A stretch of DNA of 64,000 bases from Prochlorococcus sp. AG-409-B05 (GTDB lineage Bacteria; Cyanobacteriota; Cyanobacteriia; PCC-6307; Cyanobiaceae). Every line of letters begins with the position of its first letter. Position 1 is the first letter of the stretch. This document shows, in pieces, positions 29,778 to 48,377 of the stretch. Under the pieces are notes generated by a model. The model saw only the letters and a list, made by a program, of their open reading frames with translations. It ran no database searches and was not told the DNA's origin. The stretch is taken from contig QCJK01000008.1 of the NCBI GenBank assembly GCA_003216075.1, positions 1-64,000 on the forward strand. Reading direction: 5' to 3'. A program made the position numbers and the translations under genes.

Positions 29778-30947
29778 TTACATACAAAAATGATCATCAA
29801 ATTCTCTCAAGTCTATGACCAGTCTCTGCATATCAGTAATAATTCTAGAAGGAATCATTGAATACTTCATATTACTTATACCACTTAAGTACCAATATAA
29901 AGGATGAATTGAATCTTGAGGCATGAATTCAATTATCCTTGTACCTTCTTTCATCCAAAGCAAATGAGTAAGACCGGCACCATGGGGAGCGACTAAATAA
30001 TCAGCAGTTTGCAATATATTGATTTGCTCTGGCAAATTCATTTCTTCAAGAAAAACTGGAGTTAGTGAATAGCGAGAAATTAACTTATCTACTTGCTCCT
30101 CAAAAGCAAAACTACGATAATTACTATTTCTTCTAAGTATTAATAGTCTTTTGTTTGATTTTATATCAAATTTATGATAAGAATTCTCCATTATTCTATC
30201 TGCTACAAATTTTACTATCTTAGATTGCTCTGGAGAAAAACTCTCGGCCATTACCATTGTAGAATGAACTAAGTTTTTTATAGAAATTATACCCTCTAGA
30301 TATTTTATTTCATCTACTTTTATGCCTAATGCTTTTAGAGTTGATAAGTGATAATCTCTTGGTCTATGCTTACCAAGCCACAATAATTGGGTTGAGTCTT
30401 TTATAAACCCATTCCTAATCATCAAACAAATTCTTGGAATGGCCTCATGAATCCAATGATAAAAGTTTGTCGAGGCCCATCTTGTGTTTAGGATAAATGT
30501 CTCCTCACTATTATTGGTGCTTAATAAGTTTGCATTCTCATAAAGCCATTTAACGTATAAACCCAATTTAACTATCTGATTTCTTCGTAAAATCCAAGAA
30601 TAACACTCTCTACCATGATGGCTACAATCTAAGAGTTTTAGTCCAGAATTACTTAAAACGCCAATATCAATCGTCTCAGTGTTTACAATTACATCTCTAA
30701 TTTTATAAACAATAGTACCTTTACTATCAAAGTTATTAAAACTATCAATCTTGATAGAAGTATCTGTATGTCTCTTGATCCATTCCCTCATTTGGAAAGC
30801 AGATGGCCCCGAATAACTTCCCAAATCAAAGGGAATAAGAGAAGGTTCATGAATAGAGTAAGAATAATAAGATATTTTCTTGGCGTCTACAAAATATCTT
30901 GCATTTAGTTCCTTCCATTCCCTTTGTTCTTCATGTTCATGACTCAT
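29778..30947 (-). CDS. Glycosyltransferase family 61-like (DUF563)
   Basis: 389 residues. The C-terminal half has the GT61 pattern: NFYHWIHEAIPRI, LLILRRNSNYRSF, then VAPHGAGLTHLLWMKEGTRIIEFMP. GT61 proteins transfer sugars such as xylose or GlcNAc in cytosol or membrane-facing roles. It is the last gene of the heptose operon direction, 83 bases after the HAD gene, so it could add the sugar made by that operon. Confidence 0.8.
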   Translation of the reverse strand: MSHEHEEQREWKELNARYFVDAKKISYYSYSIHEPSLIPFDLGSYSGPSAFQMREWIKRHTDTSIKIDSFNNFDSKGTIVYKIRDVIVNTETIDIGVLSNSGLKLLDCSHHGRECYSWILRRNQIVKLGLYVKWLYENANLLSTNNSEETFILNTRWASTNFYHWIHEAIPRICLMIRNGFIKDSTQLLWLGKHRPRDYHLSTLKALGIKVDEIKYLEGIISIKNLVHSTMVMAESFSPEQSKIVKFVADRIMENSYHKFDIKSNKRLLILRRNSNYRSFAFEEQVDKLISRYSLTPVFLEEMNLPEQINILQTADYLVAPHGAGLTHLLWMKEGTRIIEFMPQDSIHPLYWYLSGISNMKYSMIPSRIITDMQRLVIDLREFDDHFCM

Positions 30948-31030
30948 AATGTCAGTTTTTTAAAAGAATCAGTGAGAAGTGATAATTTTTCAGTTGCCTT
31001 CTTAAATTAGTGATAATCAATGCTGTCAGA

Positions 31031-31660
31031 TTATACATTTAAATCATTTATGCTTGACTGCAGCTCTTGCCATTTTGTAATTACAGGTCCTCCCGTCCAT
31101 TCACTATTACCATCTGGGCAGTAATGAATTCTGGAAATAGTAGAAGGTAGAGTTTCTAGTATTTCAGGTAAATCATCAATGTAATGCGTACAACCGCAAT
31201 TGATAATTCTATTTTTCTTTTCTTCCTTTGTTTTCTCAAAAAATATTTCATCATGTTTAAAATCTAAAAGATTTTTTTCGAAAAAACCTTGTTCTTTCAT
31301 CCAATGCAAAGCCCATTCGTGTAAATCATAAGCAGGACCTTTATAAGGATTCTTAGTTTTATGACTTATAATCTTCATATCAAGTCCTTTCTTCCTTAGT
31401 TTTGCTAATACTAGAATAGCTCCAGGTTGACTTTTTGCATTAATTATTCCAGGTCCGTACGCTTCAGCCTGAAGAATAGTAAAGTCAGAATCTTTACCTT
31501 TAGATCTTAAATAATTTCTTATTGACAACTTATCACTTGCTATACTATTAGGTATAAGCCCTTTAGATGTTGCCAATTTGTAGAAAATATCATTATAGTT
31601 AATCAATGTATTATCAAAATCAAGTCCTAGAGTAATGTTTTTACCTACGAAGAGATTCAC
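31031..31660 (-). CDS. HAD-superfamily phosphatase
   Basis: 209 residues. HAD motif I is LGLDFDNTL, motif II is MKIISHKT, motif III Lys is probably in KTKEEKKNRI and motif IV is YIDDLPE. A cap-like insert follows motif I. It overlaps the transketolase C gene by 4 bases (ATGA). It probably removes a phosphate from the sugar product of the operon, but the substrate is unknown. Confidence 0.75.
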   Translation of the reverse strand: MNLFVGKNITLGLDFDNTLINYNDIFYKLATSKGLIPNSIASDKLSIRNYLRSKGKDSDFTILQAEAYGPGIINAKSQPGAILVLAKLRKKGLDMKIISHKTKNPYKGPAYDLHEWALHWMKEQGFFEKNLLDFKHDEIFFEKTKEEKKNRIINCGCTHYIDDLPEILETLPSTISRIHYCPDGNSEWTGGPVITKWQELQSSINDLNV

Positions 31661-32580
31661 TGAGTCAACTCCGTTCTAATTGTCTCTATAATGCCTTCGG
31701 AATTCATTCCATACCTTTCTCTGATGTAATCTTGACTACCAAGTCTATGTATAAACTCATCTGGTACTCCAATACCTTTAAGTCTGATTTGATTACATCT
31801 GTTTGCAACTAGCCATTCTGACAAAAGTGAACTAACTCCACCAATCAATCCATGTTCTTCAATAGATATCCATAACTTAAATCTTTTTGATAACTCTCCA
31901 ATGAACTTTTGATCTATAGGTTTAATACCACCTAAAGAAGCTACCGCAACAGAAATATTATCAACTTCAAGAGTTTTAGCTGCTAAAAGTGCCTCACCTA
32001 AGATTGGTCCAACTCCTATAACAACTACATCCTCACCATCTTTAAGCATATTTGCCTTTCCTATTCCAAGGTTTGAATATTCATCATGAAGATTAGGCTC
32101 ACCTTTTTTCCCAATCCTCAGATAAGTTGGATTGGAATCTATTAGGGCTTCTTTTAACTGAGCTGTCAACTCTTTACTATCTGCTGGTGCTAAAACATTC
32201 AATCCAGGAATTGTTCTAAGGATTGCCATATCTTCAAGAGAATGATGAGTAGGGCCTAGCTCTGAATAACTTAACCCGGAACCAGTCCCGACAATTACAA
32301 CCGGTGCTTTGTGGTAAGCAACTCCAATCCGTATTTGTTCAAGACATCTTGTAGTAGTAAAAGGAGTGATTGTATATACAACTGGACGCATACCACTTAA
32401 TGCCATGCCTGAAGCAATGCTCATCATATTTGCTTCAGCTATCCCACAATTGATAAATCGTTCAGGAGATATCTTTTTAAAATCATCAAACATTCTATTT
32501 CCAATATCTCCAGACAGCAAACAAACATCTTTTCTAAGACTTGCTATTTGTGTCATATTTTCAGCAAAGGTATTCCTCAT
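31657..32580 (-). CDS. Transketolase, C-terminal subunit
   Basis: 307 residues, the pyrimidine-binding and C-terminal domains of a transketolase as a separate protein. The catalytic Glu lies in INCGIAEANMMSIASG; PFTTTRCLEQIRIG, GPTHHSLEDMAILR and APADSKEL follow. It overlaps the N-terminal subunit gene by 4 bases. Together they should form a TPP enzyme moving a two-carbon ketol unit. Its operon partners are sugar-nucleotide enzymes, not pentose-phosphate genes. Confidence 0.92.
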   Translation of the reverse strand: MRNTFAENMTQIASLRKDVCLLSGDIGNRMFDDFKKISPERFINCGIAEANMMSIASGMALSGMRPVVYTITPFTTTRCLEQIRIGVAYHKAPVVIVGTGSGLSYSELGPTHHSLEDMAILRTIPGLNVLAPADSKELTAQLKEALIDSNPTYLRIGKKGEPNLHDEYSNLGIGKANMLKDGEDVVVIGVGPILGEALLAAKTLEVDNISVAVASLGGIKPIDQKFIGELSKRFKLWISIEEHGLIGGVSSLLSEWLVANRCNQIRLKGIGVPDEFIHRLGSQDYIRERYGMNSEGIIETIRTELTQ

Positions 32581-33404
32581 GAATAACTCTCCAACTCTTC
32601 TAAAGCTGCTTGAAGTTCATCTGCATTAGGTATTCGATAGTGCCAATTATTATCATCTTCCATAAAAGAAACACCTTTACCTTTTATAGTATGCGCGATG
32701 ATAACACTTGGCCTATCTTTTTCTAATTTTGCACTCAAAAGAGACTTAGATATCTCATCAAAATTATGGCCATCTATTTCTTGAGCATGCCATCCAAAGG
32801 CAATCCACTTATCGGCTAATGGATCAATAGCCATTATTTCTTTACTTCGACCTGTTGCTTGCCATTTATTAAAATCTATTATGGCAGTTAAATGAGATAC
32901 TTTCTTACTCCCCGCAAGCATTGCCGCTTCCCATATAGTACCTTCATTGCACTCACCATCACTTAAAAGTGCATAACATCGAGTATTTTTTGCCTGGACT
33001 TTGTGAGAAATAGCCATGCCTAATGCCATAGGGAAACCATGGCCTAATGATCCCGTTGCTGCCTCAATACCAGGAATATATCCTGGTATTGGAGGGTGTT
33101 CATGGAAAATACTACCGTCTTTGCCAAATTCTAAAAGTTTTGTTATTGGAAAAAAACCTCTTTCTGCAAGCACTTGAATCCAAGCAGGAGAGGCATGACC
33201 CTTGCTAAGTATAAATCTATCTCTATCTGGATCTTCAGAAAAATCTGGATCTATCCTGAGTTCTTTCCAGTAAAGATATACAAGTATATCTACACATGAA
33301 AGACATGAGCCTAGATGAGGGATTTTAGAATTTGCAGATGTTTCTACTATCCTTTTGCGAATAAGGTTCGATATAACTTTTAAATTGTTATATTTGTCTG
33401 GCAT
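32577..33404 (-). CDS. Transketolase, N-terminal (TPP-binding) subunit
   Basis: 275 residues. TPP pyrophosphate motif SDGECNEGTIWEAA with NKWQATG, the early LSKGHASPAW, and GSLGHGFPMALG. The next gene supplies the other half, so together they equal one transketolase. Its stop overlaps the following ATG by 4 bases; its own start shares one base (TAATG) with the preceding SDR stop. Confidence 0.92.
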   Translation of the reverse strand: MPDKYNNLKVISNLIRKRIVETSANSKIPHLGSCLSCVDILVYLYWKELRIDPDFSEDPDRDRFILSKGHASPAWIQVLAERGFFPITKLLEFGKDGSIFHEHPPIPGYIPGIEAATGSLGHGFPMALGMAISHKVQAKNTRCYALLSDGECNEGTIWEAAMLAGSKKVSHLTAIIDFNKWQATGRSKEIMAIDPLADKWIAFGWHAQEIDGHNFDEISKSLLSAKLEKDRPSVIIAHTIKGKGVSFMEDDNNWHYRIPNADELQAALEELESYS

Positions 33405-34360
33405 TATTTATTAAATGAACTGTCAAGATTTAATTTTTTCATCCACTTTACTGTATAAGAATTTGCTTCATCATGTAATTCACCTTTATGATACGAATCA
33501 ATTATCTCCTGAATTGCATTGTTGACATTGTATTTTTGAACAAAACCTGTTTTCAAAAGCTTTGTTGAATCTTGCCTATAGGAACGAGGATCATTAGATT
33601 CAGTAATAACTAATTCACTCGAAGTCAGATCACTAATCATTTCAGCAATATCTAAAATTGTTAGATTCTCAAATCCTGCATTATAGCAACCAGATGGAAT
33701 ATTCCTTTGATTTAGAAAATGTCTATAAACATTTGCCATGTCTTTTATATGTATGTTAGGCCTTGTCTGATTACCTCCAAAAACAGTTATTCTTCGATTC
33801 TTTAATGCTTGATAGGTAAGCATGTTAACACTTACATCCAATCTCATACGAGGTGAAATACCACAAACTGTTGCAGGCCTAAGGCAATGTATTTTCATCT
33901 CTTTTGCATAAGACAAAAAAACTCTTTCTGCAACCATCTTTGTTTTATTATATACAGAAATGGGCAATAGTTCAAGTTCCTCAGTGACTTTTTCTTCTTC
34001 TTTGACACCATATACACTTCCTGAACTTGCATAAATCAACTGCTTCACCCCTGATCTCAATGCCTTGTCTGCAAGTTGTTGTGCTATCAAAACATTAACT
34101 TCCCAACTTAATAATGGGTTTAAATCTACTGCTGGATCATTTGCAATATTAGCCAAATGAATAATAGTATCTATATCATCCATTGGAATTTGATCAATAT
34201 TTCTTACGTCTAGTTTGATGTTGATCAGTCGTGGATGTTCTTCTAAATAATTACCAAACCACTGATTATCAATATTAATAACGTCATGACCATCTTTTAA
34301 TAATAAGGGTATCAAAACCGAGCCCTTATATCCGCATCCACCTGTGACTAATAATTTCAT
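33404..34360 (-). CDS. NAD-dependent epimerase/dehydratase (extended SDR)
   Basis: 318 residues from ATG 34360, whose ATGA overlaps the previous stop; a TTG at 34381 is less likely. Rossmann TGGCGYKGS, ASSGSVYG, catalytic YNKTK, and the RPATVCG substrate strand. It is a nucleotide-sugar epimerase, dehydratase or reductase. Placed beside the transketolase pair, it may act before or after two-carbon transfer. Confidence 0.88.
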   Translation of the reverse strand: MKLLVTGGCGYKGSVLIPLLLKDGHDVINIDNQWFGNYLEEHPRLINIKLDVRNIDQIPMDDIDTIIHLANIANDPAVDLNPLLSWEVNVLIAQQLADKALRSGVKQLIYASSGSVYGVKEEEKVTEELELLPISVYNKTKMVAERVFLSYAKEMKIHCLRPATVCGISPRMRLDVSVNMLTYQALKNRRITVFGGNQTRPNIHIKDMANVYRHFLNQRNIPSGCYNAGFENLTILDIAEMISDLTSSELVITESNDPRSYRQDSTKLLKTGFVQKYNVNNAIQEIIDSYHKGELHDEANSYTVKWMKKLNLDSSFNK

Positions 34361-35379
34361 GATTTGTGTTGGTACTCCCAAGGAAGATCTTTAAGAATAT
34401 TGAAATGCCTATCAACCCAATCAAGAGTTTCATTTAGGCCTTGATCAAGATCAATCTTATCTGACCAACCAAACCTGTCTCGAATATTGCTGCTATCCAA
34501 AAGATAGCTCTGATCCTTGCCTAGTCTTTCTTCACCCACCTCAACCACTGAATTGAACTCTATATTTGCTATTTTACAAATTCTTTTAACTAAGGCCCTT
34601 ATAGATATGACCTCTTTAGTTGAAAGGTGCCAAGTAGTTCCTGGCTCAGCACTTAAAGCCAACTGCAATGTAGCCGAAACAACATCTCTTATATGTATAA
34701 ATGAACGTTCTGAGAGTCCCCCACCATGTAATTGCATAGATTTTCCAGTACGTGCGCTCAATATTGTTCTAGGAACTATGCGATAAAGTTGTTGGCCAGG
34801 ACCATAAACATTTGCTGCTCTAGTAAATATCACAGGAAATCCATATGCCTTATAAAAACTTTGTAAATGCATATCACATGCTGCCCGACTTACAGCATAT
34901 GGAGTACTGGGTGAAAAATTAGTATTCTCTTTTATCCATCCATTATCTGTGCTTCCATAAACTTCAGGAGTCGTCACATGAACATATTTCTCAATAAAAG
35001 GCCTCTTCCTTAACTCATCATGAAAGGCGACTTGAGATAAGAGATTTGTACGATACCACTGCAGTGGATTAAGCCAACTTTCAGCGACCATTCCTTGAGC
35101 TGCAAAATTAACAATAAACCCTGGTTGATATTTGTCAACCAAATCAATTAAATCAGTTAAATTAGTATTTATATCAAGTATATGATGCTGAAAATTATCT
35201 TTGTTGGCAATGGCTCCACTAATAGATGAATCACTCCATCGATAAGGTAAAAATACAGCATTAGGCTCTCTAGAGCGACTAACACCACATACGGAGTTAC
35301 CTAATTTTAATGTTTCAGCAACGAAATGCGATCCACTAAAACTATTGCTTCCAACAACTAAAAACTTATTACTATTCAT
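34357..35379 (-). CDS. Extended SDR resembling NDP-sugar 4,6-dehydratase, altered active site
   Basis: 340 residues. It resembles RfbB/GMD enzymes: VVGSNSFSGSH, NFAAQGMVAESW, TTPEVYG, YAVSRAA and RAANVYGPGQ. The catalytic YxxxK Lys is Arg here (YAVSR), and TDEVYG is TPEVYG, losing the acid that dehydratases use. It may therefore be a reductase, an epimerase or a changed enzyme. It overlaps both neighbours by 4 bases. Confidence 0.82.
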   Translation of the reverse strand: MNSNKFLVVGSNSFSGSHFVAETLKLGNSVCGVSRSREPNAVFLPYRWSDSSISGAIANKDNFQHHILDINTNLTDLIDLVDKYQPGFIVNFAAQGMVAESWLNPLQWYRTNLLSQVAFHDELRKRPFIEKYVHVTTPEVYGSTDNGWIKENTNFSPSTPYAVSRAACDMHLQSFYKAYGFPVIFTRAANVYGPGQQLYRIVPRTILSARTGKSMQLHGGGLSERSFIHIRDVVSATLQLALSAEPGTTWHLSTKEVISIRALVKRICKIANIEFNSVVEVGEERLGKDQSYLLDSSNIRDRFGWSDKIDLDQGLNETLDWVDRHFNILKDLPWEYQHKS

Positions 35380-36878
35380 GAGCTTAATACCTCTATCAAA
35401 TTTAAACGTAATGACTCATTTGTTATGGATTTATTTCCCATAGTTTCAACAGAAAGTGCTGCCATACAACATCCTAAAGCTGCTGTTGGCATCATTTTTT
35501 GACCACTAGCCAATCCAGTTGCCATAACAGCAAGCAAAGAATCTCCTGCTCCGGCAACATCTACTGGATTAACTGAAAGTGCTGGAAAGGCCTGGCTCAC
35601 AAGCTCACCAGAGGAATTACGGTCATAGGTAATAAATCCTTCTGCTCCAAGTTTCATGATCAACTTATCAGTATTTGTATTCTCCAATAATCTCTGACTA
35701 AGAAGCTCCAAACCTATGTCATTATCTTGTAAAGCAATTCTTGCTTCTCGTTCATTTGGACAAAGCAATGAAAAATTCTTAAATCTAGTTACTGTTCCTA
35801 CTTGACTACTACATTGGAGATCACCAAATAATAAAAGATTATATTTTATAGCCATTTCCTGTACAACTTCCAAAATATTATTTGTAACTACTCCATACAC
35901 AAAATCCGAGATCACTATTCCCTGAACATTAGGTGCTATAGCTTTCAATCGTTGAATAAATTGATCCTCTAGTTCGGGATCTAGACTATGATCCTCAACA
36001 CGACTAACTCTAAAAAGCTTTTGATTTTCGACTACATAACGCTTTTTAAATGTAGTTGGCCTAGAGGAGTCTTCAAATAATTCATCACCAATTCCTTGCT
36101 CAACTAATCCTTGACGGACAAGCTCAGACGTTTTGTCAGAACCTACAACAGAAAGAAGATCACAAGAAGCACCCAATGCTTTTATATGAGATGCCACAAC
36201 AGCTGCACCACCAATAAAATTTCTTGTTTCAAGTTCTCTTACTACAACTACTGGTGCCTCAGCACTCATTCCAATTGCCTCGCAAGCTGCATATTGATCA
36301 ACAATAGTGTCTCCCAAAACAAGCAACTTTGCCGACTTCCACGCGTTCATAGAATCCAAAAGTTTCTTTTTGTCCAAACCCTGCCTTTTACAAGCTGCCA
36401 TAAATTGCTTACGACGCTGCTCACTCAACTCTCTTTCAGATCTACTTAACAAATCAGTACTCGCATAATTAATTTCCCCTGCATGAAACTGGACTATATT
36501 TTTTTGTTTTCTTTGGAGAAAAATGGCCTCATTAACATCAACATCCTCTGAGCATTGAAATTCTTTCCCTAAGACAAGAATTGCAGGATCTAGTTCTCTT
36601 ACAACTTGAATAAGTTCCTTGTACTCAAGAAGAATAATTGAATCGGCAATACCAAGCATTGCAACAGCTTCAGCCCTCTCTGACTGAGAAAATTGAAAGG
36701 ATGGATTTTCTTTAGATAATCCATCTCCCATCAAAGCAATCACAAATTTTTCTCCTTGATCACGAGCATTTCGCAAATAACGAATATGACCAGGATGGAT
36801 TGTATTGAAGTGGCCATAGCCCAAAACACATTTTCTTAAATGTGTCGCTTCTTTTAAAGTAATAATAGATGTTTTCAC
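35376..36878 (-). CDS. HldE-like bifunctional protein, domain order reversed
   Basis: 500 residues. Residues 10-140 are a cytidylyltransferase-like domain (GHFNTIHPGHIRYLRNAR, with the HxGH motif, and LVLGKEF). Residues 180-500 are a PfkB sugar kinase (NFIGGAAVVASHI, SDFVYGVV, PNEREARIAL, and VDVAGAGDSLLAVMA with the catalytic Asp). E. coli HldE has kinase first, nucleotidyltransferase second. A role in phosphorylating heptose 7-phosphate and activating heptose 1-phosphate is inferred. It overlaps both neighbours by 4 bases. Confidence 0.88.
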   Translation of the reverse strand: MKTSIITLKEATHLRKCVLGYGHFNTIHPGHIRYLRNARDQGEKFVIALMGDGLSKENPSFQFSQSERAEAVAMLGIADSIILLEYKELIQVVRELDPAILVLGKEFQCSEDVDVNEAIFLQRKQKNIVQFHAGEINYASTDLLSRSERELSEQRRKQFMAACKRQGLDKKKLLDSMNAWKSAKLLVLGDTIVDQYAACEAIGMSAEAPVVVVRELETRNFIGGAAVVASHIKALGASCDLLSVVGSDKTSELVRQGLVEQGIGDELFEDSSRPTTFKKRYVVENQKLFRVSRVEDHSLDPELEDQFIQRLKAIAPNVQGIVISDFVYGVVTNNILEVVQEMAIKYNLLLFGDLQCSSQVGTVTRFKNFSLLCPNEREARIALQDNDIGLELLSQRLLENTNTDKLIMKLGAEGFITYDRNSSGELVSQAFPALSVNPVDVAGAGDSLLAVMATGLASGQKMMPTAALGCCMAALSVETMGNKSITNESLRLNLIEVLSS

Positions 36879-37927
36879 AAGTCAATCATAACTCGTCCAG
36901 CAGTTGATCCATCTTTCATTGATTTAATAGCTAAATTAATATTATCTAAAGAGAAACGAGAACTAATTAATTTTTCAAAACTCAGCTTTCCATTCCTAAT
37001 TAATTTCATGTATCTAGGGATATCAATATGAGGGTGAGACTCTCCTCCATGAGAACCTGAAATGCTCTTGCCAAAGTGGAGATCTAATGAATGTATCAAT
37101 ATATCAGATCCTTTTCTTGGAACACCAACTAAAACTACACGTCCCTGAGGACAAATCAATTTATAACCCAATTCAATTATATTTGTAGATCCTGTGTTAT
37201 CTATAAACACATCAAGTTTATCATCTTTCAAGGCATTTCTAATTCCAAGGACTGGATCAATATTTTTAGTATTTATGACATGAGTAGCTCCTAAGTGCTT
37301 TGCCAATTCCAAACGGTTATCAAAAAGATCAACTGCAATTATGGGGAAAGCAGATAATAAAGAACAAGCTTGAATGATATTTAAGCCTATACCTCCAGCC
37401 CCAAAAACGACCACTGACTCTCCTAGTTTTATATTACTGTTATTTTCAACAACTCCAAATCCAGTTGTCACAGCGCACCCAAACAAAGCTGCAGTATCAG
37501 GATTAGTATCCGAAGGAACCTTTGTACATCGATTCTCGCTAATCACAGCATACTCATTAAAAGTTGTAACCCATCCAGCATTTACTTTATTCCCACGCCA
37601 TAAATATTTAGGAGGATCTGACTGAATTCCCACTCCTTTTCTCCAATGTAGTACTACATAATCCCCAACTTGAACATGTTTAACCCCAGGGCCTATTCCT
37701 TCAACCAAAGCAAATCCTTCATGTCCCATGAGATGAGGAAGATATGGATCAGAACCTTTTATGCCAGAAATTTCTCCCAATTGTGATCCACAAATTCCAC
37801 TTACTTGAATCTTCACCAAAACCTGTCCAACATGTAACTGATCAGGTAGTTCTATGTGATCAATCACAAGAGGTTTATTTTGCTCTACCAGAATTGCTGC
37901 CTTTGTTTGCCTAGGATAAGCATTCAT
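36875..37927 (-). CDS. Zinc-type alcohol dehydrogenase (MDR family)
   Basis: 350 residues from ATG 37927 (MNAYPRQTKAAILVEQ); an earlier start would overlap the methyltransferase and add a hydrophobic tail. GICGSQ and GHEGFALVEGIG bear zinc ligands, VVFGAGGIGLNIIQ binds NAD(P). The four-Cys structural zinc loop is not evident. In this operon it may oxidise or reduce a sugar or sugar-nucleotide carbon. Confidence 0.85.
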   Translation of the reverse strand: MNAYPRQTKAAILVEQNKPLVIDHIELPDQLHVGQVLVKIQVSGICGSQLGEISGIKGSDPYLPHLMGHEGFALVEGIGPGVKHVQVGDYVVLHWRKGVGIQSDPPKYLWRGNKVNAGWVTTFNEYAVISENRCTKVPSDTNPDTAALFGCAVTTGFGVVENNSNIKLGESVVVFGAGGIGLNIIQACSLLSAFPIIAVDLFDNRLELAKHLGATHVINTKNIDPVLGIRNALKDDKLDVFIDNTGSTNIIELGYKLICPQGRVVLVGVPRKGSDILIHSLDLHFGKSISGSHGGESHPHIDIPRYMKLIRNGKLSFEKLISSRFSLDNINLAIKSMKDGSTAGRVMIDL

Positions 37928-37934
37928 AATAAAA

Positions 37935-38609
37935 CTACTCAAAAAATATAAAAGAATAATCACCTGTATAACCCGTCTTTTCAAACCACCATTTCCATTC
38001 CAAAGGGGTATTAAAAGCCTCACAAGTCACTTGCCAGTATAATAAGTTTGCTTTTTCAAGCTCATTACGGTAACTCTCGACACACAAATACTTATTATCT
38101 TTTGCTACCCTTTCCATTTCATTAAGTGCATTTTCAAGGTCATAAGAGTGAAGATTGTGGAAGGTATTGATTGATAAGACAAGGTCAAAGAACTTATCTG
38201 GCCAAGGCAATTTATTTGCATTCCCTACCTTTAGACAATTTCTAATTTCTTCATGGCTATTATTTATAGCATACTCAGAGATATCTATCCCATACACCTT
38301 TGCATTGGGGATCACTTTTAAAAAATCATAAAGCAAATATCCCTTACCACAACCAATATCAAGAATTCTTGGGCTTTCGGGTAGTGGATAATGATTCACA
38401 ATTGATCTAGCAATTTTCTCCCATCGACCCTCTATATAGTGGTAGCCTCCATAACAAATCCGTCTATCACCGTCCCAATAATTGTAATCAAATTTCTTAG
38501 CTAATTCTGCCGCCTTATGCTTAGGAAAGGCTATATCATTTACCCTGGCAAGGTAATCGCGATTCGTACTTTTATGAAGTACGCTCATGAAATCTATTTC
38601 AGGCATCAA
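37935..38609 (-). CDS. Class I SAM-dependent methyltransferase
   Basis: 224 residues. Glycine-rich SAM site ILDIGCGKGYLLYDF, acidic VYGIDISEYA and LVLSINTFHN. It overlaps the upstream GmhA gene by 4 bases. It probably O-, N- or C-methylates a sugar or intermediate; the target is not readable. Confidence 0.85.
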   Translation of the reverse strand: MMPEIDFMSVLHKSTNRDYLARVNDIAFPKHKAAELAKKFDYNYWDGDRRICYGGYHYIEGRWEKIARSIVNHYPLPESPRILDIGCGKGYLLYDFLKVIPNAKVYGIDISEYAINNSHEEIRNCLKVGNANKLPWPDKFFDLVLSINTFHNLHSYDLENALNEMERVAKDNKYLCVESYRNELEKANLLYWQVTCEAFNTPLEWKWWFEKTGYTGDYSFIFFE

Positions 38610-39220
38610 TTCAAAGTAAGAAGTTCAGATGGTTTATTTGTATTCAACCATTGCATGCATAAATGGCCAACAACAAGTTGAATATCTTCTGCTATTTGCA
38701 TATCATCTACATCAAAATGTATTGGAACATCGGCAAGTTTAAGGCAACTCCCCCCGCTATAAGCAAGAATTGCAAAACTACGCATGCCGATCTTAGTAGC
38801 AGTATGAATAGCATTTACGACATTCTCAGAGTTCCCGCTCCCTGACAAAACTATAAGCAGATCACCCTTTCGAGCTTTTACTTGAAGCTGATGCGCATAA
38901 ATATTCCCATAATCAGTGTCATTAGCTAAGCATGTGATAATACTTGAATTGGCTGATAAAGCTTCAACCCTTATCCCTGGAAGAATGGGGCCCAATCCAC
39001 ATGCACCAATTCCATAATGTAGGTCATTAGCCATATGAATAGCATTGGCAGCACTGCCCCCATTACCACATATGTAAACAGTACGGCCATCTATCCAAGC
39101 TTGACGGAGATCTAAAGCCAAAACCTCTATGGCTGCAAAGATTGCATTACTGAAAGAGCCAGCAAGTCTATTTATATATCTTTCTGCATTTAGCTCAAAG
39201 TCTGAGGGCTGCTCTTTCAT
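38606..39220 (-). CDS. SIS-domain phosphoheptose isomerase-like (GmhA-type 1)
   Basis: 204 residues. The SIS fold has YICGNGGSAANAIHMANDL, ITCLANDTDYGN, LLIVLSGSGNSENVV and the C-terminal AEDIQLVVGHL with the putative catalytic His. GmhA turns sedoheptulose 7-phosphate into D-glycero-D-manno-heptose 7-phosphate. It differs clearly from the second copy at 48,378. It overlaps both neighbours by 4 bases. Confidence 0.85.
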   Translation of the reverse strand: MKEQPSDFELNAERYINRLAGSFSNAIFAAIEVLALDLRQAWIDGRTVYICGNGGSAANAIHMANDLHYGIGACGLGPILPGIRVEALSANSSIITCLANDTDYGNIYAHQLQVKARKGDLLIVLSGSGNSENVVNAIHTATKIGMRSFAILAYSGGSCLKLADVPIHFDVDDMQIAEDIQLVVGHLCMQWLNTNKPSELLTLN

Positions 39221-39948
39221 TGCTTATCTCCTAAAACGATTTTAAAAACTTCTTGGGCTTTTCGCAAAGCCTCTGGTGTACCAATATCCATATAAGGTTC
39301 ATTGGTGTGAAAAGTCTGAACCCTTCCCACGAGATTAGGTAGCACTTGAGTACTGAAGTCAGTCAATTCAGGGCCTAAGTCATCAAGAAAGTCAAATAAG
39401 GATGGCTCAAAAAGGTATAAAGCACCGTTAGCACAATTACCAGGAGGTCTTGCTACTTTTTCATGAAAAGCCGTCATCAAACCATCTGAATTCTTTTCAA
39501 CAATCCCACAACTACTAGGGTTCTCAGTAGTAAAGGTGAGCATAGTTAGCAGGCTCTTACTAGAACGATGTCGATGGGCTTCTAATAACAACGTTAGATC
39601 TGCATTAGTAATGTTATCTGCATGGATCAAGAGACCTGTAGCATTCATGAAGAATTTTCTATTGGCAAGTAATGTTCCTGCTGTGCCAAGAAGAGACTGT
39701 TCATGCACAATCTCTATGCGCATTGATTTAGTCACAGAGCTCTTTACGAACTCATTAACCTGTGCCGCGAGATAGTGAGTATTCACAAGTGCGGCTTCAC
39801 AACCTATTGCATCAAGTGCTCGAAACCACCGACCTAAAAGTGGTTCCCTGGAAATAGGAACTAAACATTTCGGAGTGTATAAAGTGATTGGTCTCAAACG
39901 AGTTCCAAGACCAGCAGCTAAAAGGAGTGCTCTTAAAGGCTTAATCAT
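39217..39948 (-). CDS. Sugar-1-phosphate nucleotidylyltransferase (HddC-like)
   Basis: 243 residues. Signature LLLAAGLGTRLRPITLYTPKCLVPI at the N-terminus, then LGTAGTLLANR and IHADNI (metal Asp). The closest-looking group is the mannose- or heptose-1-phosphate guanylyltransferases. Activation of heptose 1-phosphate fits its neighbours GmhA and GmhB. It overlaps both flanking genes by 4 bases. Confidence 0.85.
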   Translation of the reverse strand: MIKPLRALLLAAGLGTRLRPITLYTPKCLVPISREPLLGRWFRALDAIGCEAALVNTHYLAAQVNEFVKSSVTKSMRIEIVHEQSLLGTAGTLLANRKFFMNATGLLIHADNITNADLTLLLEAHRHRSSKSLLTMLTFTTENPSSCGIVEKNSDGLMTAFHEKVARPPGNCANGALYLFEPSLFDFLDDLGPELTDFSTQVLPNLVGRVQTFHTNEPYMDIGTPEALRKAQEVFKIVLGDKQ

Positions 39949-41177
39949 CTAGAGATCTTAGTAAATCCAGCCTTACTGATAATCAAATCGGCTAGCGCAA
40001 AGCTTGCTGTAAAGGCTGGAGAAATAGAGTTAAGAACATGCGTACTACTTGGTCCAGGCAGGCAAAGAAAGTCATCTTCTAAACTTTGCGTATTGCCATT
40101 GAAAAGCTGAGATCTAATGCCGACTTTCTGACTGATTTCTATATCATTTAATGTAAGTTTAGGTATAAGTTTTTTTGCTGATTTGAGCAGAAAAGGGGCC
40201 AAAGAGAGAAGTGCTTGCTGATGAACATAATTGCGGAAATGTCCTCTATTTAAAACATACTGTTTAGCTAAAATATCTAGACTTCTTAAAGCCACACCAA
40301 ATTCAAAATCTTTAAAACCTTTATAGTTTTCTCTTCCCCATGCAGGGGTTGCAGTTGGGCCAATACTTATTGTTGGAACTTTATCAGCACTTGGCGTAAA
40401 ATGAACACCAAGGAAGGGTAAATCTAAATCTGGTACAGGATAAAGATTAGTTCTGATTTTAATAGGAGAATCTTTTTTTAATTGCCAATACAAACCTTTA
40501 AAAGGTAACAAGCTATATTCTAAACCTACACCATACTGGTGAGCCAAACGATCTGCCTGAAGGCCTGCACAATTAATAAGATGTCCATAAGAAATAACAG
40601 ATCCATCTTGCATTATAAGTTGCTTATCAAATGGCTTTGGACGCCAGTTTTTTTGACCAGTAAAGATACGAACTCCATTAATTTCTAATTCTTCTCTCAG
40701 TTTAGACATTATTAGCTTAGGAATCACTACTGAAGTGTCAGGTGTCCACAATGCTCTGCCAGTAGAGCTACGAGCTTCGGGAATAAGTTCCTGTAACTGC
40801 TTTTGATCTAAGATTTCCAATTTTGCTCCATTTTGTCTGCCACGTTTAGCTATTAAATCAAGTTGTCCATCTAAAGATGGATCTTGAGGAACAATTATCT
40901 TCCCACATTTACTGATTGGCAATGATCGCTGATCTATCCATCGTTTAAGTCTTTTTGACCCAGCGACACAAACATTTGCCTTTAAAGAATCAGGCTTATA
41001 GTAAAGGCCAGCATGTAATACTCCACTATTACGTCCCGAACTATGAAAACCAATTTTATCTTCTTTTTCTAAAAGCACTATATTTGCGAAGAGTTTTCTT
41101 TCTAGTAGCTGATAAGCAACACAAACCCCTACAATGCCCCCACCAACAATAACAATATCTGCATTCGTTGAATTCAT
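39945..41177 (-). CDS. FAD-dependent oxidoreductase, L-2-hydroxyglutarate oxidase (LhgO)-like
   Basis: 410 residues of the DAO fold: VIVGGGIVGVCVAYQLL, LEKEDKIGFHSSGRNSGVLHAGLYYKPDS, and GHLINCAGLQADRLA. This pattern is typical of LhgO/YgaF. The early HSSGRNSG motif and IGPTATPAW fit. In this operon it may instead oxidise a sugar-acid or hydroxy-acid side group; the canonical substrate is not assured. Confidence 0.82.
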   Translation of the reverse strand: MNSTNADIVIVGGGIVGVCVAYQLLERKLFANIVLLEKEDKIGFHSSGRNSGVLHAGLYYKPDSLKANVCVAGSKRLKRWIDQRSLPISKCGKIIVPQDPSLDGQLDLIAKRGRQNGAKLEILDQKQLQELIPEARSSTGRALWTPDTSVVIPKLIMSKLREELEINGVRIFTGQKNWRPKPFDKQLIMQDGSVISYGHLINCAGLQADRLAHQYGVGLEYSLLPFKGLYWQLKKDSPIKIRTNLYPVPDLDLPFLGVHFTPSADKVPTISIGPTATPAWGRENYKGFKDFEFGVALRSLDILAKQYVLNRGHFRNYVHQQALLSLAPFLLKSAKKLIPKLTLNDIEISQKVGIRSQLFNGNTQSLEDDFLCLPGPSSTHVLNSISPAFTASFALADLIISKAGFTKISR

Positions 41178-41192
41178 AAGTAGAAAGATAAA

Positions 41193-41858
41193 TCAATCTA
41201 ATGTTCTCAAGATAGAAAAAGGAAATTCGTTCAGGGTATTAATCAAATATAAATGAGACTCAAACCTATCATCCACAAAGAAGTAATTCTTCTTACCATC
41301 AGAATCGTTACAGATGAAAGGTCTAGTATGTTTTTTTATAAGACTTCTCTCATCTGATCCGTGACCAGTCATTACATGAATAACTGATGAAATCCCTGCT
41401 CTGGCTCCCGCCAAAAGATCGGAGCATCGGTCACCAATCAAAATAGACTGAGACACATCCAAGGAAAGATCATTAACTGCGGCTAAAACCATCGAAGGGC
41501 TTGGCTTACGCCAAGAGTCTCTAGGTGCATCTGGCCCATATCCATTCGCATATATAGCTGAAATAGGACAGGGTTGACCTAAAAGTTCAAGCATACGTGC
41601 AGTAACCAAGCCATAATCATTCCAAGTCAGCAGACCTCTAGATATTCCAGATTGATTTGTAACCAATACGACCTCCCATCCAAAATTAAAAGCGTAAGTT
41701 AATAAGTCGAAAGCTCCCGGCATAAGTTCAACATCATCAGGGTTAGAGATATAATTCCGATCTTGTATGACAACACCATCTCGGTCTAAAAATAAAGCTG
41801 GCTTTTTACGCAGTTCAAGAGAGTATTTTTGTGGTTTAATAATTTTGCAATCTCTCAT
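41193..41858 (-). CDS. gmhB: D-glycero-D-manno-heptose-1,7-bisphosphate 7-phosphatase (GmhB)
   Basis: 221 residues from ATG 41858 (GTG 41879 and ATG 41864 are in frame upstream). HAD motif I FLDRDGVVIQDRNYI, motif II VTNQSGISRGLL, SWRKPSPSMVLAA and motif IV ILIGDRCSDLLAGARAG. The DxD-containing motif I with the NYI and NQSGI signatures is diagnostic for the histidinol-phosphatase/GmhB group. It begins the heptose operon. Confidence 0.9.
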   Translation of the reverse strand: MRDCKIIKPQKYSLELRKKPALFLDRDGVVIQDRNYISNPDDVELMPGAFDLLTYAFNFGWEVVLVTNQSGISRGLLTWNDYGLVTARMLELLGQPCPISAIYANGYGPDAPRDSWRKPSPSMVLAAVNDLSLDVSQSILIGDRCSDLLAGARAGISSVIHVMTGHGSDERSLIKKHTRPFICNDSDGKKNYFFVDDRFESHLYLINTLNEFPFSILRTLD

Positions 41859-41929
41859 ATACATGAGAATTAATGCCACTATTATAATTTTATTTAGCTA
41901 TATATGGCTAAATATTCCCTATTATATGC

Positions 41930-43748: not shown

Positions 43749-45821
43749 ATGATCGGCCACAAAAGGCTAACAGCTAAAGCTGTCACGCTATTAAAAAAAG
43801 GTGATTTAGTTGAAGCTAAAATTATATTCAATAGGCTAATTAAGAATGGCTTAGGGGAAGCACATACTTACAATTACTTAGGGACGATCTACATATTTGA
43901 AATGGAGTGGGAAAAATGCATAAGAGCTCTTCAAATAGCAATTTCGATTGACTCAAATTATGTAGAAGCTATTATCAATTTAGGAATAGCATTAGAAAAA
44001 TCTGGGCAAATTAAAGATGCTATTACTTCATATAAAAAGGTTTTAAATCTAGAAAAAAATAATATAGCTGCATTAACAAATCTAGGTATCGCCTTGGAAC
44101 ATAGTGGAGATATCAAAGGGGCTATTAAGTATATAAAAGAAGCAACACTCATCAAAACTCAGGATCCAAATTTGATCTGCAATTTAGGTCACTGCTATCA
44201 ATTAGATGGCAATTACAAAGAATCCATCAATGTTTACAATAAAGCCCTGGAAATAGATCCATTCCACTATAGATCAATAAATAATCTAAGCAGTGTCTAT
44301 ATACAAAAAGGAGGCTTAAGAGAAGCAAAACTATTATTAAAGAAATGTCTAGCTATTAACCCTAGATATGCGGAGGCTTTCTATCATTTAGGATTAGTAG
44401 AACAACTTCAAGGAAGTTACTATGAAGCTATAGATGCCTACCAAAAGGCTCTTAATATAGAAAGTAATTATGGTGAAGCAATCGCCTCTCTTTTTGAGTG
44501 CAAAGGAAGAATATGTGATTGGAGTTTAGTAGATAATTATAAACAGAAATATACTGAAATTGATTTTTCGGGTAAAGCCATTCCACCACTGGGGGTACTT
44601 ATCTACGACGATAATCCTTACTCACAAATGATAAGAGCAAAAAGATTTTTCGAGAAGGAATTTAAAAGATTGGAAATAGAAGGCATAAAGCTATACAAAA
44701 AGAAGAAAATACGAATTTGCTATTTCTCTGCAAACTTCTATAACCATCCTGTAATGCAGTTAATTGCTAGATTGTTTGAATTGCATGATAAAAATACCTT
44801 CGAGGTATACGGATATAGTTTTGGGCTTCAAAAAAAAGATGCCTATAGAAATAGAATTGAAAATAGCCTTGATGTATTCAAAGAAGTTGATCATCTAGAC
44901 GATTCAGAGATAGCCTTGTTAGCAAGAAAGGATAAAATTGATATAGCGATTGACCTGATGGGGCATACAAAAGATTCTAGGTTAGGAATCTTTTCCTATA
45001 GAGCAGCACCTATACAAATAAACTATCTAGGTTACCCTGGGACGAATGGAGATAGTTGTTTTGATTACATTATTGCCGATGATGTGCTTATTAAAAAGGA
45101 GGAAAGAAAATACTATCAAGAAGAAGTTATAACACTACCAGGCTCATATCAATGTAATGATGATACAAAAACAATCAGCAAAAAACTGTTTAATCGGAAT
45201 GAACTAGGGATTCCCTTAAATACTTTTGTATTTACTTGTTTTAATGAAAACTATAAAATCACTAAAAGTGAATTTTCTGCATGGATGAATATATTAAAAA
45301 GGGTTGAGATGAGTGTGCTCTGGCTTTACAGCTCAAATCAGATATCTGAATCTAATTTAAAGAAAGAAGCTGCCAAGGCAGGTGTGGATAGTGGGAGGAT
45401 AATTTTTGGAGAAAGGATGAATAATGACGATCATCTTGCAAGACACTCTTGTGGTGATTTATTTCTAGATACCTTCAATTATGGAGCTCATACCACTGCA
45501 TCAGATGCTTTGTGGTCAGGCATGCCACTACTTACACTTACAGGCAAAAGTTTTTCATCTAGAGTCGCTGAAAGCCTTCTAAGAGCCTTGGAAATGGAAG
45601 AGTTGATTTGTAATAAAATAGAAGAATACGAAGATAAAGCAATAGAAATAGCTACTAAAAGGGACTTATTCATAAAGATTAGAGAGAAACTATCTCAAAA
45701 AATAAAAGAAAGTGGTTTATACAATTCGAAAAACTTCAGTAAAAACTTCGAGGAAATCCTTAAAAAGGTATACAAACAATATATAAATTATAAAGCCAAT
45801 AATATCATACTGGAGGTTTAG
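43749..45821 (+). CDS. TPR protein with OGT/SPINDLY-type glycosyltransferase domain (GT41)
   Basis: 690 residues. About seven tetratricopeptide repeats fill residues 5-260 (repeated AxxNLGxALExxGxxxxAIxxY). The rest is a GT41 domain: RICYFSANFYNHPVMQLIARLF, IDLMGHTKDSRLGIFSYRAAPIQINYLGYPGTNG and the UDP-binding HTTASDALWSGMPLLTLTG. Such enzymes O-glycosylate proteins or act in polysaccharide synthesis. TPRs recognise the acceptor. It is followed by the aminotransferase gene. Confidence 0.92.
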   Translation: MIGHKRLTAKAVTLLKKGDLVEAKIIFNRLIKNGLGEAHTYNYLGTIYIFEMEWEKCIRALQIAISIDSNYVEAIINLGIALEKSGQIKDAITSYKKVLNLEKNNIAALTNLGIALEHSGDIKGAIKYIKEATLIKTQDPNLICNLGHCYQLDGNYKESINVYNKALEIDPFHYRSINNLSSVYIQKGGLREAKLLLKKCLAINPRYAEAFYHLGLVEQLQGSYYEAIDAYQKALNIESNYGEAIASLFECKGRICDWSLVDNYKQKYTEIDFSGKAIPPLGVLIYDDNPYSQMIRAKRFFEKEFKRLEIEGIKLYKKKKIRICYFSANFYNHPVMQLIARLFELHDKNTFEVYGYSFGLQKKDAYRNRIENSLDVFKEVDHLDDSEIALLARKDKIDIAIDLMGHTKDSRLGIFSYRAAPIQINYLGYPGTNGDSCFDYIIADDVLIKKEERKYYQEEVITLPGSYQCNDDTKTISKKLFNRNELGIPLNTFVFTCFNENYKITKSEFSAWMNILKRVEMSVLWLYSSNQISESNLKKEAAKAGVDSGRIIFGERMNNDDHLARHSCGDLFLDTFNYGAHTTASDALWSGMPLLTLTGKSFSSRVAESLLRALEMEELICNKIEEYEDKAIEIATKRDLFIKIREKLSQKIKESGLYNSKNFSKNFEEILKKVYKQYINYKANNIILEV

Positions 45822-45912
45822 ATCATTAAGTTACATTGCCTAAGAATATTATACGCCTGCTAAAATATGTTTGAGATCCATAAAAAGTTGGCTACAATAA
45901 AATGATTATGAC

Positions 45913-47085
45913 ATGGATAAATTCATGGAAATAGAAAACAGCCTTGAATGGCCATTATTTGGAGAGGAGGAAGAGGAAGCCGTTCTAAGGGTAATAAGAT
46001 CGAATCAATTATTTGCAGCAAATGAAGTAAGAAGCTTTGAGGAGCAATATAGTGATTTTATAGGTGTTGATTTTAGTATTGGAGTAGGTAATGCGACGCA
46101 AGGTCTACATCTGGCACTGGCCGCATTAGAAATAGGAGTTGGAGATGAAGTTATAGTGACACCCTATTCCTGGATATCAAGTGCATCATGCACTTTAATG
46201 CAGAATTCAGTACCAATTTTCTGTGATATTGAGGATAAAACATTTGGCCTAGACCCTAAGCAAGTTGAAAAGTTAATAACGAAGAGAACCAAAGCTGTTG
46301 TTTGTGTCCATATGTTCGGATACCCATGCAGAGCAATAGAACTAAAAGAAGTCTGCAAGGAAAACAACTTACATCTAATAGAAGATAACTCTCATGCGCA
46401 TGGAGCAAAAATAAGAAATAATTATACAGGGACTATAGGGAGTATATCAGTAGCAAGTTTACATCAAAGAAAATCACTATGCGTCGGAGATGGAGGGATT
46501 GTCTGTACTAACAACAGAGAACTAAGAGATAAGATATATAGACTAAGATCATTTGGAGATAAAGAACTAAGTTATAATTACAGAATGACAGAATTCGCAG
46601 CAGCCATAGGTAAAGTAAGACTTGCTAAATTAAATCACCACAACGCAAAGCGAATAAGTAATGCAAGGTTGCTTGAAAAAATATTTGAAGATAACAACTT
46701 TGTAAAAGTATTAAAAGCAGAAAAAGACACTCAAAGTGTATATTACGCTGTTTTATTGGTCCTTAATAGGAGTTTGGATCTGGAATTTGAACAACTGCCT
46801 TATTGTAATAATCCAAAAACAGCCATCGTAAGATGGACATGGGAACCACTTCACAAAAATTCTAATTTTGATATTAATAATATACCTGCGAGAGGATATC
46901 CCTGGGAATTTGAGCACTATAAAAATGAGAAGAGATGGAATGTCCCAAAATTAAAAATAGCTGAAAAATACTTAAACAAAAGAATTATAGAATTTTACGT
47001 CCATCCAACTTTCGATAAAGATAAGATCAAAACTATTGGAGAGCAGCTTAATCTACAAATAAAGAGAAAAGCTATTTCAGTATAA
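45913..47085 (+). CDS. DegT/DnrJ/EryC1/StrS-type sugar aminotransferase
   Basis: 390 residues. PLP-fold motifs: GVGNATQGLHLALAAL, ADEVIVTPY-like DEVIVTPYSW, LIEDNSHAHGA, the Lys in HQRKSLCVGDGGI, and NYRMTEFAAAIGKVR. It aminates a keto-sugar nucleotide using glutamate. It is 92 bases after the GT41 gene and 16 before the kinase gene. Confidence 0.92.
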   Translation: MDKFMEIENSLEWPLFGEEEEEAVLRVIRSNQLFAANEVRSFEEQYSDFIGVDFSIGVGNATQGLHLALAALEIGVGDEVIVTPYSWISSASCTLMQNSVPIFCDIEDKTFGLDPKQVEKLITKRTKAVVCVHMFGYPCRAIELKEVCKENNLHLIEDNSHAHGAKIRNNYTGTIGSISVASLHQRKSLCVGDGGIVCTNNRELRDKIYRLRSFGDKELSYNYRMTEFAAAIGKVRLAKLNHHNAKRISNARLLEKIFEDNNFVKVLKAEKDTQSVYYAVLLVLNRSLDLEFEQLPYCNNPKTAIVRWTWEPLHKNSNFDINNIPARGYPWEFEHYKNEKRWNVPKLKIAEKYLNKRIIEFYVHPTFDKDKIKTIGEQLNLQIKRKAISV

Positions 47086-47101
47086 AACAATATACTTTAT
47101 C

Positions 47102-48187
47102 ATGACATCTAATTCTATAAATAGAGATATAAGCTTTAATAAGCCTATATCGTTTGAGAAGTTTTACCATTGGAAAACAATACAATCTAGATTAGATGAA
47201 ATTTCACCAAAGAAATCAACAATATCAAATATTATCAGCCTAAATAATGGAGGAAATAGCTCTGTATACAAGTTCAATTATAATGAGTGCGTTTATATCC
47301 TAAAAGTATTTCCTGATATAAAAAATGTAGACTATTCAATTAGACTAAAACGCGAGCTAGACTTCCTTTATATACTAGAAAAAATGAAGGTTAATAATGT
47401 GCCAAGAATTATCAGTCATGACAAATCAAAGCTTTGGATATTAGAAACATACCTGAACGGAGAGCGGGTAAGTACCCCCAATATATGGCAAATAAAATCA
47501 GTGGCTAGTTTTATTAGGGAAATAAATACTTACAGCCCATTTATACAAGACTGCAAAATTCAACTCGCCTCAGAAGCATGTTTTAGCCTTAGAGATCATG
47601 TTGAGATAGTTATTCAAAGAATGCAAAGGATAAAAGAAACATTGATTGAAAAACACAAAAAAGATAACTGCATTAGAGCTTGGGTGGAGAATGAGTTTTG
47701 TTCAAGTCTTAATAAAATAATAAATACTAGTCTTCAAGAAAATGAACAGGAAGACTGTTTTATATATTCAAATAATTTCAAGAAAATCCTTTCACCTTCT
47801 GATATTGGATTTCATAATATTATAAATAATAATGGTAAATTATATTTTTTTGACTTCGAACATGCAGGATGGGACGATATTTCAAAATTAATCTGTGACT
47901 TTTGCAATCAGCCTGAATATACATTGAACCGAAGAGAAACTCAAATTTTCATAGAAGGACTAAGAATCAATAAATTAATAGATAAAAATACATTAAAGAG
48001 GTGTTTAAGAATCCGAGAAATTCTAATTGTAAAGTGGGTTCTGATTATCCTTGACCGAGCAATCAATAGAGAACAATGCAACAAAGAAGAAGGTTATGAT
48101 TACATCCTCAACAAATGCAAGTTATACTATGAAAATACTTTAAAGAATAATTACCTTCAAGAGATAGAACATCATACTAACTTTTAA
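47102..48187 (+). CDS. APH/choline-kinase-like phosphotransferase
   Basis: 361 residues. N-lobe LNNGGNSSVYKF and YILKVF (ATP Lys), catalytic loop LSPSDIGFHNII and metal-binding DFEHAGWDD match the aminoglycoside phosphotransferase fold. It probably phosphorylates a sugar hydroxyl at the start of an anomeric activation path, given the adjacent aminotransferase, GmhA and KdsC-like genes. Confidence 0.8.
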   Translation: MTSNSINRDISFNKPISFEKFYHWKTIQSRLDEISPKKSTISNIISLNNGGNSSVYKFNYNECVYILKVFPDIKNVDYSIRLKRELDFLYILEKMKVNNVPRIISHDKSKLWILETYLNGERVSTPNIWQIKSVASFIREINTYSPFIQDCKIQLASEACFSLRDHVEIVIQRMQRIKETLIEKHKKDNCIRAWVENEFCSSLNKIINTSLQENEQEDCFIYSNNFKKILSPSDIGFHNIINNNGKLYFFDFEHAGWDDISKLICDFCNQPEYTLNRRETQIFIEGLRINKLIDKNTLKRCLRIREILIVKWVLIILDRAINREQCNKEEGYDYILNKCKLYYENTLKNNYLQEIEHHTNF

Positions 48188-48239
48188 ATCAAAATAAAAA
48201 AACAAAGGACCGGCTTTACTTAAAACTTGCTAATTTAAA

Positions 48240-48371: not shown

Positions 48372-48377
48372 TTAGCA

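Follow-up and report, generated by a model that had tools for sequence, protein, structure and literature searches.

What is a split transketolase doing in a heptose operon of a picocyanobacterium? The question is raised by the 64,000-nucleotide stretch of Prochlorococcus sp. AG-409-B05 analysed here (contig QCJK01000008.1; the window), in which 13 minus-strand genes run in transcription order from a GmhB-type phosphatase to a GT61-type glycosyltransferase and include separate genes for the N- and C-terminal parts of a transketolase (TK-N and TK-C; Table 1). Judged by its gene content, this cyanobacterial operon is related to the 11-gene bradyrhizose O-antigen cluster of photosynthetic Bradyrhizobium, and its product is probably a nucleotide-activated sugar of the bradyrhizose type, branched at C4 and destined for a surface glycan. 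An earlier, sequence-only reading of the window had offered two roles for the transketolase, local supply of the heptose precursor or addition of a two-carbon branch to nucleoside diphosphate (NDP)-heptose; our analysis disfavours the first and strongly favours the second.

The open reading frames and the sequence of the window confirmed the layout given by that reading: all 13 genes lie in one direction, and its count of nine overlaps of 4 bases or 1 base, interrupted by one 7-base gap, is exact. The GmhB gene is followed after 15 bases by LhgO, which overlaps the nucleotidyltransferase (NTase) by 4 bases, as the NTase does the SIS isomerase; the isomerase overlaps the methyltransferase (MT) by 1 base, and 7 bases separate the latter from the medium-chain dehydrogenase (MDR). 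Four-base overlaps then join the MDR to the HldE-like fusion, the fusion to the first short-chain dehydrogenase/reductase (SDR1) and SDR1 to SDR2, after which come a 1-base overlap with TK-N, 4-base overlaps at TK-N/TK-C and TK-C/HAD, and an 83-base gap before the GT61 gene. Pfam and NCBIfam domain searches agreed with the proposed gene labels. The two GmhB scores fell under the equivalog cut-offs, and the HldE-like fusion matched TIGR02198 (192 bits) and the heptose-7-phosphate kinase structure 4e84. The arrangement is not due to chance, because the same set recurs across many phyla.

The genes for bradyrhizose biosynthesis have been stated not to be known, and a cluster was only proposed in the 2016 mutant paper, the main text of which does not contain the word “transketolase” (PMC4743980). 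Disruption of gdh removes the bradyrhizose O-antigen in photosynthetic Bradyrhizobium (PMC4743980). When the forward gdh primer was compared with 272 Bradyrhizobium genomes, it matched exactly in only one (G643), where the reverse primer was exact as well, and both primers fall exactly inside SDR1 (locus L197). In this genome and seven related ones, the cluster consists of exactly 11 genes in the order HldE-NTase-SDR2-SIS-SDR1-TKN-TKC-MDR-HAD-APH-MT. All 11 families occur in the window, ten of them in the operon and the eleventh as an APH-family kinase about 5.2 kb past its GmhB end on the opposite strand. This kinase, overlooked by the sequence-only reading, belongs to the gene set and is the sole match in its genome (1.8 Mb in 52 contigs) to the APH of sister locus L036. 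Identities between the window and the Bradyrhizobium locus L200 are 60% for SDR2, 55% for MT, 51% for NTase, 50% for TK-N, 49% each for SIS and SDR1, 48% for TK-C, 41% for MDR, 34% each for HldE and HAD, and 29% for APH. The window thus holds 11 homologues, a gdh homologue, and a transketolase that shares a clade with the Bradyrhizobium ones, apart from other split transketolases. Compared with the clusters of strains ORS285, ORS278, and BTAi1 (PMC4743980), the families, the transketolase clade, and SDR1/gdh are the same and the order is partly kept, whereas the cyanobacterial operon has LhgO and GmhB in addition, another gene order, and a detached APH.

The structure of the sugar is consistent with this relationship. 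Bradyrhizose has ten carbons in an inositol-fused bicyclic structure, and its C1 aldehyde can close on O4 to give a furanose and on O5 or O9 to give pyranoses (PMC9912281, PMC9042403). Because the hemiacetals form through O4, O5, and O9, C4 must carry a hydroxyl together with a carbon substituent (C9). This pattern would be expected from a two-carbon addition to the C4 ketone of a heptose, and seven carbons from the heptose, two from a ketol unit, and one from an S-adenosylmethionine (SAM) methyl group would account for all ten.

The split transketolase has conserved thiamine diphosphate (ThDP) motifs in TK-N, a Glu49 in TK-C that is invariant among homologues, and a PDB match to a split transketolase (6yaj). 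The two parts, encoded by two genes and not as one chain, score 258 and 167 bits against an NCBIfam transketolase equivalog cut-off of 488. Given that a full-length, housekeeping-type transketolase is found on contig C11 of the same genome, the housekeeping role does not fall to the split pair. A role limited to providing the heptose pathway with sedoheptulose 7-phosphate, or with some other ketose, would agree with the known ability of transketolases to make this compound and with the presence of heptose-phosphate genes in the operon, yet we consider this very improbable and rejected it on three grounds. The genome has the separate transketolase just mentioned. Among 251 genomes of the cyanobacterial family, the module transketolase never occurs without SDR2 (11/11), and its clade stays with the C4-dehydrogenase and sugar-modifying genes, while 11 genomes have heptose-phosphate genes and SDR2 without it. 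Lastly, sister operons replace the transketolase with a pyruvate-dehydrogenase-E1-like alpha/beta enzyme, and we know of no enzyme of this type that makes sedoheptulose 7-phosphate.

This replacement points to the function of the slot. In six genomes (G669, G684, G139, G694, G274, and G845), the E1-like pair, fused in two of them, stands directly after SDR2 in place of the transketolase in operons that are otherwise the same (MT, MDR, HldE, SDR1, SDR2, and neighbours); in G742 and G757, it lies elsewhere in the cluster. HAD accompanies all 11 transketolase operons and APH ten of them (the contig of G693 stops within HAD), whereas both are absent from all eight E1-type clusters. AviB1/AviB2 are likewise E1-like. 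Such ThDP alpha/beta complexes have been proposed to put pyruvate-derived acetyl branches on sugar C4 (PMC4753412). The logic proposed here is that of yersiniose (YerE), avilamycin (AviB1/AviB2), and paulomycin (Pau11/Pau12), in which a ThDP enzyme puts a two-carbon unit on C4 of an NDP-4-keto sugar (PMC4753412). These C4-branched octose systems attach pyruvate-derived acetyl or hydroxyethyl groups to deoxyhexoses, whereas the transketolase would give a hydroxyacetyl group on a heptose. On the simplest reading, the slot after SDR2 would hold a C2-transferase acting on the 4-keto product of SDR2, and the HAD/APH pair would handle a hydroxyl that is carried by the transketolase-derived unit and not by an acetyl unit. 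The branch role is thus supported by the adjoining SDR2, the E1 swap, and the homology to the bradyrhizose cluster. The literature searched contained no described equivalent of a transketolase with heptose, O-antigen, or branched sugars, and as far as it shows, the sugar has indeed not been described in cyanobacteria.

Two further kinds of ThDP locus were observed. Two E1-type operons contain another ThDP enzyme downstream (L208:109-1959 and L209:15937-17766), which is acetolactate-synthase-like (TPP_enzyme_N/M/C). Other split transketolases (L041:2900-10525 and L042:10014-18496) adjoin genes that resemble rfbF, rfbG, and rfbH of the CDP-4-keto-3,6-dideoxyglucose pathway, labelled by eye and from weak BLAST matches, which suggests a counterpart of the yersiniose pathway that uses a transketolase.

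The ketone on which such a transferase would act is attributed to SDR2. The closest solved relative of SDR2 is 6vo6/6vo8 (E 7.6e-34), which we take to be Cj1427; the GISPRMRLD motif is common to both, and the catalytic Tyr137/Lys141 of the SDR family is invariant among SDR2 homologues. In Campylobacter, Cj1427 oxidizes GDP-heptose at C4, and its tightly bound NADH is recycled by 2-oxoglutarate, giving L-2-hydroxyglutarate (PMC10680097). By analogy, SDR2 would be re-oxidized in the same way. The adjacent LhgO falls just under the NCBIfam NF008726 equivalog cut-off (290.9 vs 299 bits) and is filed as LhgO-like; its closest PDB entries are 8w75, 8w78, and 8w7f, presumably Drosophila L-2-hydroxyglutarate dehydrogenase (L2HGDH). 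The 2-oxoglutarate contacts of the fly enzyme are Ser88, His92, Tyr289, Leu299, His302, and Arg393 (PMC10726252), and in an alignment to 8w75, with positions counted by hand, all six are conserved in LhgO. Within the family, LhgO was found in 19 of the 22 genomes with SDR2 vs 14 of the 229 without it (Fisher p 6.6e-17, uncorrected for relatedness). As LhgO follows SDR2 with or without the transketolase (9/11 and 10/11, respectively) and the six contact residues are kept, LhgO most likely serves C4 oxidation by recycling the L-2-hydroxyglutarate made by SDR2.

LhgO might instead oxidize the sugar itself, for example, at a 2-hydroxy acid intermediate. DAO-family flavoenzymes have diverse substrates, the score lies slightly under the cut-off, and 14 genomes have LhgO without a close SDR2. 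The retained contacts and the association with SDR2, the sole enzyme expected to yield L-2-hydroxyglutarate, make this improbable. At six loci without a close SDR2 (L217, L218, L219, L220, L222, and L223), a weak SDR1-like match lies about 1 kb from LhgO, which possibly serves another sugar dehydrogenase with the same recycling there.

The heptose kinase of Campylobacter is a GHMP kinase, whereas that of the operon is of the PfkB/HldE type. In the Campylobacter jejuni GDP-heptose pathway (PMC10680097), NDP-heptose is likewise made by an isomerase, a kinase, a phosphatase, and a nucleotidyltransferase before Cj1427-type C4 oxidation with 2-oxoglutarate, and the next steps are taken by a C3/C5 epimerase and a C4 reductase. 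The operon has instead a ThDP C2-transferase, MDR, SDR1, HAD, and APH.

A search for the same ordered set in other genomes, which the sequence-only reading had put forward as a check, found the module in more than 10 phyla. Within the cyanobacterial family of the window, copies of the operon are roughly 60-70% identical to it; that of G276 (L037) extends from LhgO to HAD, and the APH kinase stands immediately after HAD in most relatives. The wide search, in which a TK-N alignment was compared with one genome per species, gave 80 loci from many phyla, where profiles from the cyanobacterial genes repeatedly placed SDR2, TK-C, HAD, APH, MT, MDR, SDR1, and HldE-type genes around TK-N. Six core partners were defined (SDR2, SDR1, HAD, APH, MT, and either MDR or SpoChoClust_2), and 25 of the 39 long loci (at least 18 kb) have all of them, vs 58 viral split-transketolase loci taken as a negative control, of which 56 have none and two have one. 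Carriers include relatives of Prochlorococcus and Synechococcus, Verrucomicrobia, Planctomycetes, Chlamydiae, Acidobacteria, and Proteobacteria, and the module clade occurs in just 17 of 272 Bradyrhizobium species. When 119 TK-N sequences were placed in a maximum-likelihood tree, 50 of the 52 from the module, including those of the window and of Bradyrhizobium, fell in one clade (support 99/95). Split transketolases on viral contigs (L130, L134, L139, and L141) form its sister group (98/94), the loci of which are nearly all without module partners, and phage records contain only distant split transketolases (<40% identity). Two cyanobacterial SDR2 loci (L045:10301-11206 and L048:10508-11320) have a split transketolase of a different clade, outside that of the module, as if the module enzyme had been displaced.

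The remaining enzymes were assessed via alignments of homologues. The small HAD gene has no match in Pfam, NCBIfam, or PDB, and its motifs DFDNT (DxDNT), S99, and DD162-163 are invariant across 68 homologues. The methyltransferase, with a strongly conserved C-terminal motif, is a candidate source of the tenth carbon, with C- or O-methylation both open to it. In the MDR, the zinc ligands Cys46 and His69 are invariant and Cys151 is present in 88%. Where MDR would stand between MT and HldE, G257 (L034) has two genes identified by NCBIfam as SpoChoClust_1 (TIGR04323) and the 2-oxoglutarate/Fe(II) oxygenase SpoChoClust_2 (TIGR04324), and the same genes take this position in L035. These sporadic carbohydrate cluster families lie inside the sister loci L034, L035, L039, and L088 together with the transketolase, SDR2, MT, HAD, and APH; no published function for either was found in the literature searched. 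SpoChoClust_2 has no match in the genome of the window, the control genomes being all negative too, and MDR occupies its position. Since MDR and the oxygenase are largely exclusive (33 long loci have MDR only, and both occur only in L077), they fit two ways of oxidizing one carbon, possibly C7. SDR1 resembles dTDP-glucose 4,6-dehydratases in sequence and does not retain their Asp-Glu pair with YxxxK: Pro stands in place of the Asp in 98% of homologues, the active-site Glu is retained, and Lys is replaced by Arg in 71%. An ordinary 4,6-dehydratase was therefore rejected, and standard dehydratase activity is unlikely for SDR1; a part in a ring-closing aldol reaction is our guess.

From these observations, a stepwise route can be drawn. 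The SIS isomerase, HldE kinase, GmhB, and NTase would convert sedoheptulose 7-phosphate to NDP-D-glycero-D-manno-heptose. SDR2 would oxidize C4 via tightly bound NAD, re-oxidized by 2-oxoglutarate to give L-2-hydroxyglutarate, which LhgO would return to 2-oxoglutarate. The split transketolase would then take a ketol unit (CO-CH2OH) off a ketose phosphate and join it to the C4 ketone, so that C4 becomes a tertiary alcohol bearing a two-carbon branch and the sugar has nine carbons in total. More speculatively, C7 may be oxidized by MDR, or by the 2-oxoglutarate oxygenase in other strains, SDR1 may aid an intramolecular aldol between C7 and the branch end to form an inositol-like ring, APH and HAD may handle the extra hydroxyl peculiar to the transketolase-derived branch, and MT may add the tenth carbon. 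The sequence-only reading had expected an octose or a nonose. An octose was rejected, as heptose plus a two-carbon unit gives a C9 compound; nine carbons stand, and a C9/C10, probably carbocyclic product is more likely, perhaps bradyrhizose or a near relative of it. In its most general form, the proposal is of a widespread carbocyclic-sugar pathway that had not been recognized before, here in a cyanobacterial version. Heptose C4 oxidation with 2-oxoglutarate/L-2-hydroxyglutarate cycling would be followed by ketol transfer to a nucleotide-sugar ketone, catalysed by the split transketolase, and by intramolecular aldol closure to a C10 sugar with a fused inositol ring; the C2 slot would be interchangeable, taking a transketolase or a pyruvate-E1-like enzyme, and would so diversify the branch. 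This general form remains tentative, its chances falling a little short of even.

The route might also stop once the branch is added, leaving an open C4-(hydroxyacetyl or dihydroxyethyl) heptose, that is, a branched nonose, perhaps methylated and not carbocyclic. The logic of the slot after SDR2 is equally valid for such a product, MDR, HldE, and HAD have diverged from their Bradyrhizobium counterparts, and an obvious cyclase is absent among the enzymes. The Bradyrhizobium set of 11 genes, however, has no extra gene as candidate cyclase either, and all 11 families, SDR1/gdh, MDR, HAD, and APH included, are found here, so that we regard the open nonose as unlikely.

Several points weigh against a product of the bradyrhizose type. 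The activities of the module enzymes are read here from their genes, and the operon has two nucleotidyltransferase domains for which our model has no explanation. Known transketolases use aldehyde acceptors, and attack on a ketone would be unusual, though other ThDP enzymes do so. SDR2 is only a distant relative of Cj1427, its use of 2-oxoglutarate being assumed by analogy, and most non-cyanobacterial copies of the module are without LhgO. MDR and HldE belong to the less conserved proteins of the set, which could mean a different product, and the tenth carbon of bradyrhizose is taken to arrive as a methyl group. A polar effect in the gdh mutant was conceded by its authors (PMC4743980).

The synthesis of bradyrhizose has been open since its discovery, and its symbiotic role is debated. 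Our analysis proposes a stepwise route, with the transketolase, which would use a ketone as acceptor, as the likely branch-forming enzyme and with LhgO as the proposed partner for electron recycling. New here are the link of bradyrhizose to a cyanobacterium, the wide distribution, the recycling role of LhgO, and the interchangeable C2 slot; the class of product, a C10 sugar such as bradyrhizose or a relative, is likely already known rather than an unknown octose. If the reading is true, sugars of this class, so far regarded as peculiar to a few symbionts, would be widespread on the surfaces of microbes, among them the picocyanobacteria of the ocean, the surface glycans of which are thought to be relevant to phage attack and grazing.

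Table 1. Genes of the operon in transcription order and the detached kinase (positions in the window)
Feature	Position	Strand	Match
GmhB-like heptose-1,7-bisphosphate 7-phosphatase; D,D-heptose type by family, specificity presumed	41193..41879	-	NCBIfam NF006506, 109 bits; TIGR00213, 99 bits
LhgO / L-2-hydroxyglutarate oxidase	39945..41177	-	NF008726, 290.9 bits; best PDB match 8w75
Sugar-1-phosphate nucleotidylyltransferase (NTase), HddC/MurU/RmlA fold	39217..39948	-	PF00483
SIS / GmhA-like sedoheptulose-7-phosphate isomerase	38606..39220	-	TIGR00441, 98 bits
SAM-dependent methyltransferase (MT)	37935..38606	-	PF13847
Zinc MDR alcohol dehydrogenase	36875..37927	-	PF08240/PF00107
HldE-like fusion: N-terminal cytidylyltransferase-like domain, C-terminal PfkB heptose kinase	35376..36878	-	PF01467 + PF00294
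SDR1, homologue of Bradyrhizobium gdh	34357..35379	-	dTDP-glucose 4,6-dehydratase-like, below cut-off
SDR2, Cj1427-like NDP-heptose C4-dehydrogenase	33404..34360	-	best PDB match 6vo6/6vo8
TK-N, split transketolase N-terminal (ThDP-binding) subunit	32577..33404	-	PF00456, 125 bits
TK-C, split transketolase C-terminal subunit (pyrimidine-binding and C-terminal domains)	31657..32580	-	PF02779 + PF02780
Small HAD phosphatase, accompanies the transketolase variant	31031..31660	-	HAD motifs
GT61-family glycosyltransferase	29778..30947	-	PF04577, 76.5 bits
APH-family kinase, eleventh module family, detached here	47102..48187	+	module APH hidden Markov model, 233 bits

The GT61 enzyme is outside the conserved module and is a possible user of the sugar made by the operon. 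On the plus strand at 43749-48992, the window also contains a TPR-GT41 glycosyltransferase, a DegT aminotransferase, the APH kinase, and a second SIS isomerase, which suggests that the glycan island extends beyond the operon on this side. In G276, a second heptose operon lies beside the transketolase module on the opposite strand (L037:3996-7924), with genes for a GHMP kinase (HddA-like, by eye), GmhB, SIS, a Cj1427-like SDR with 33% identity to SDR2, and an NTase.

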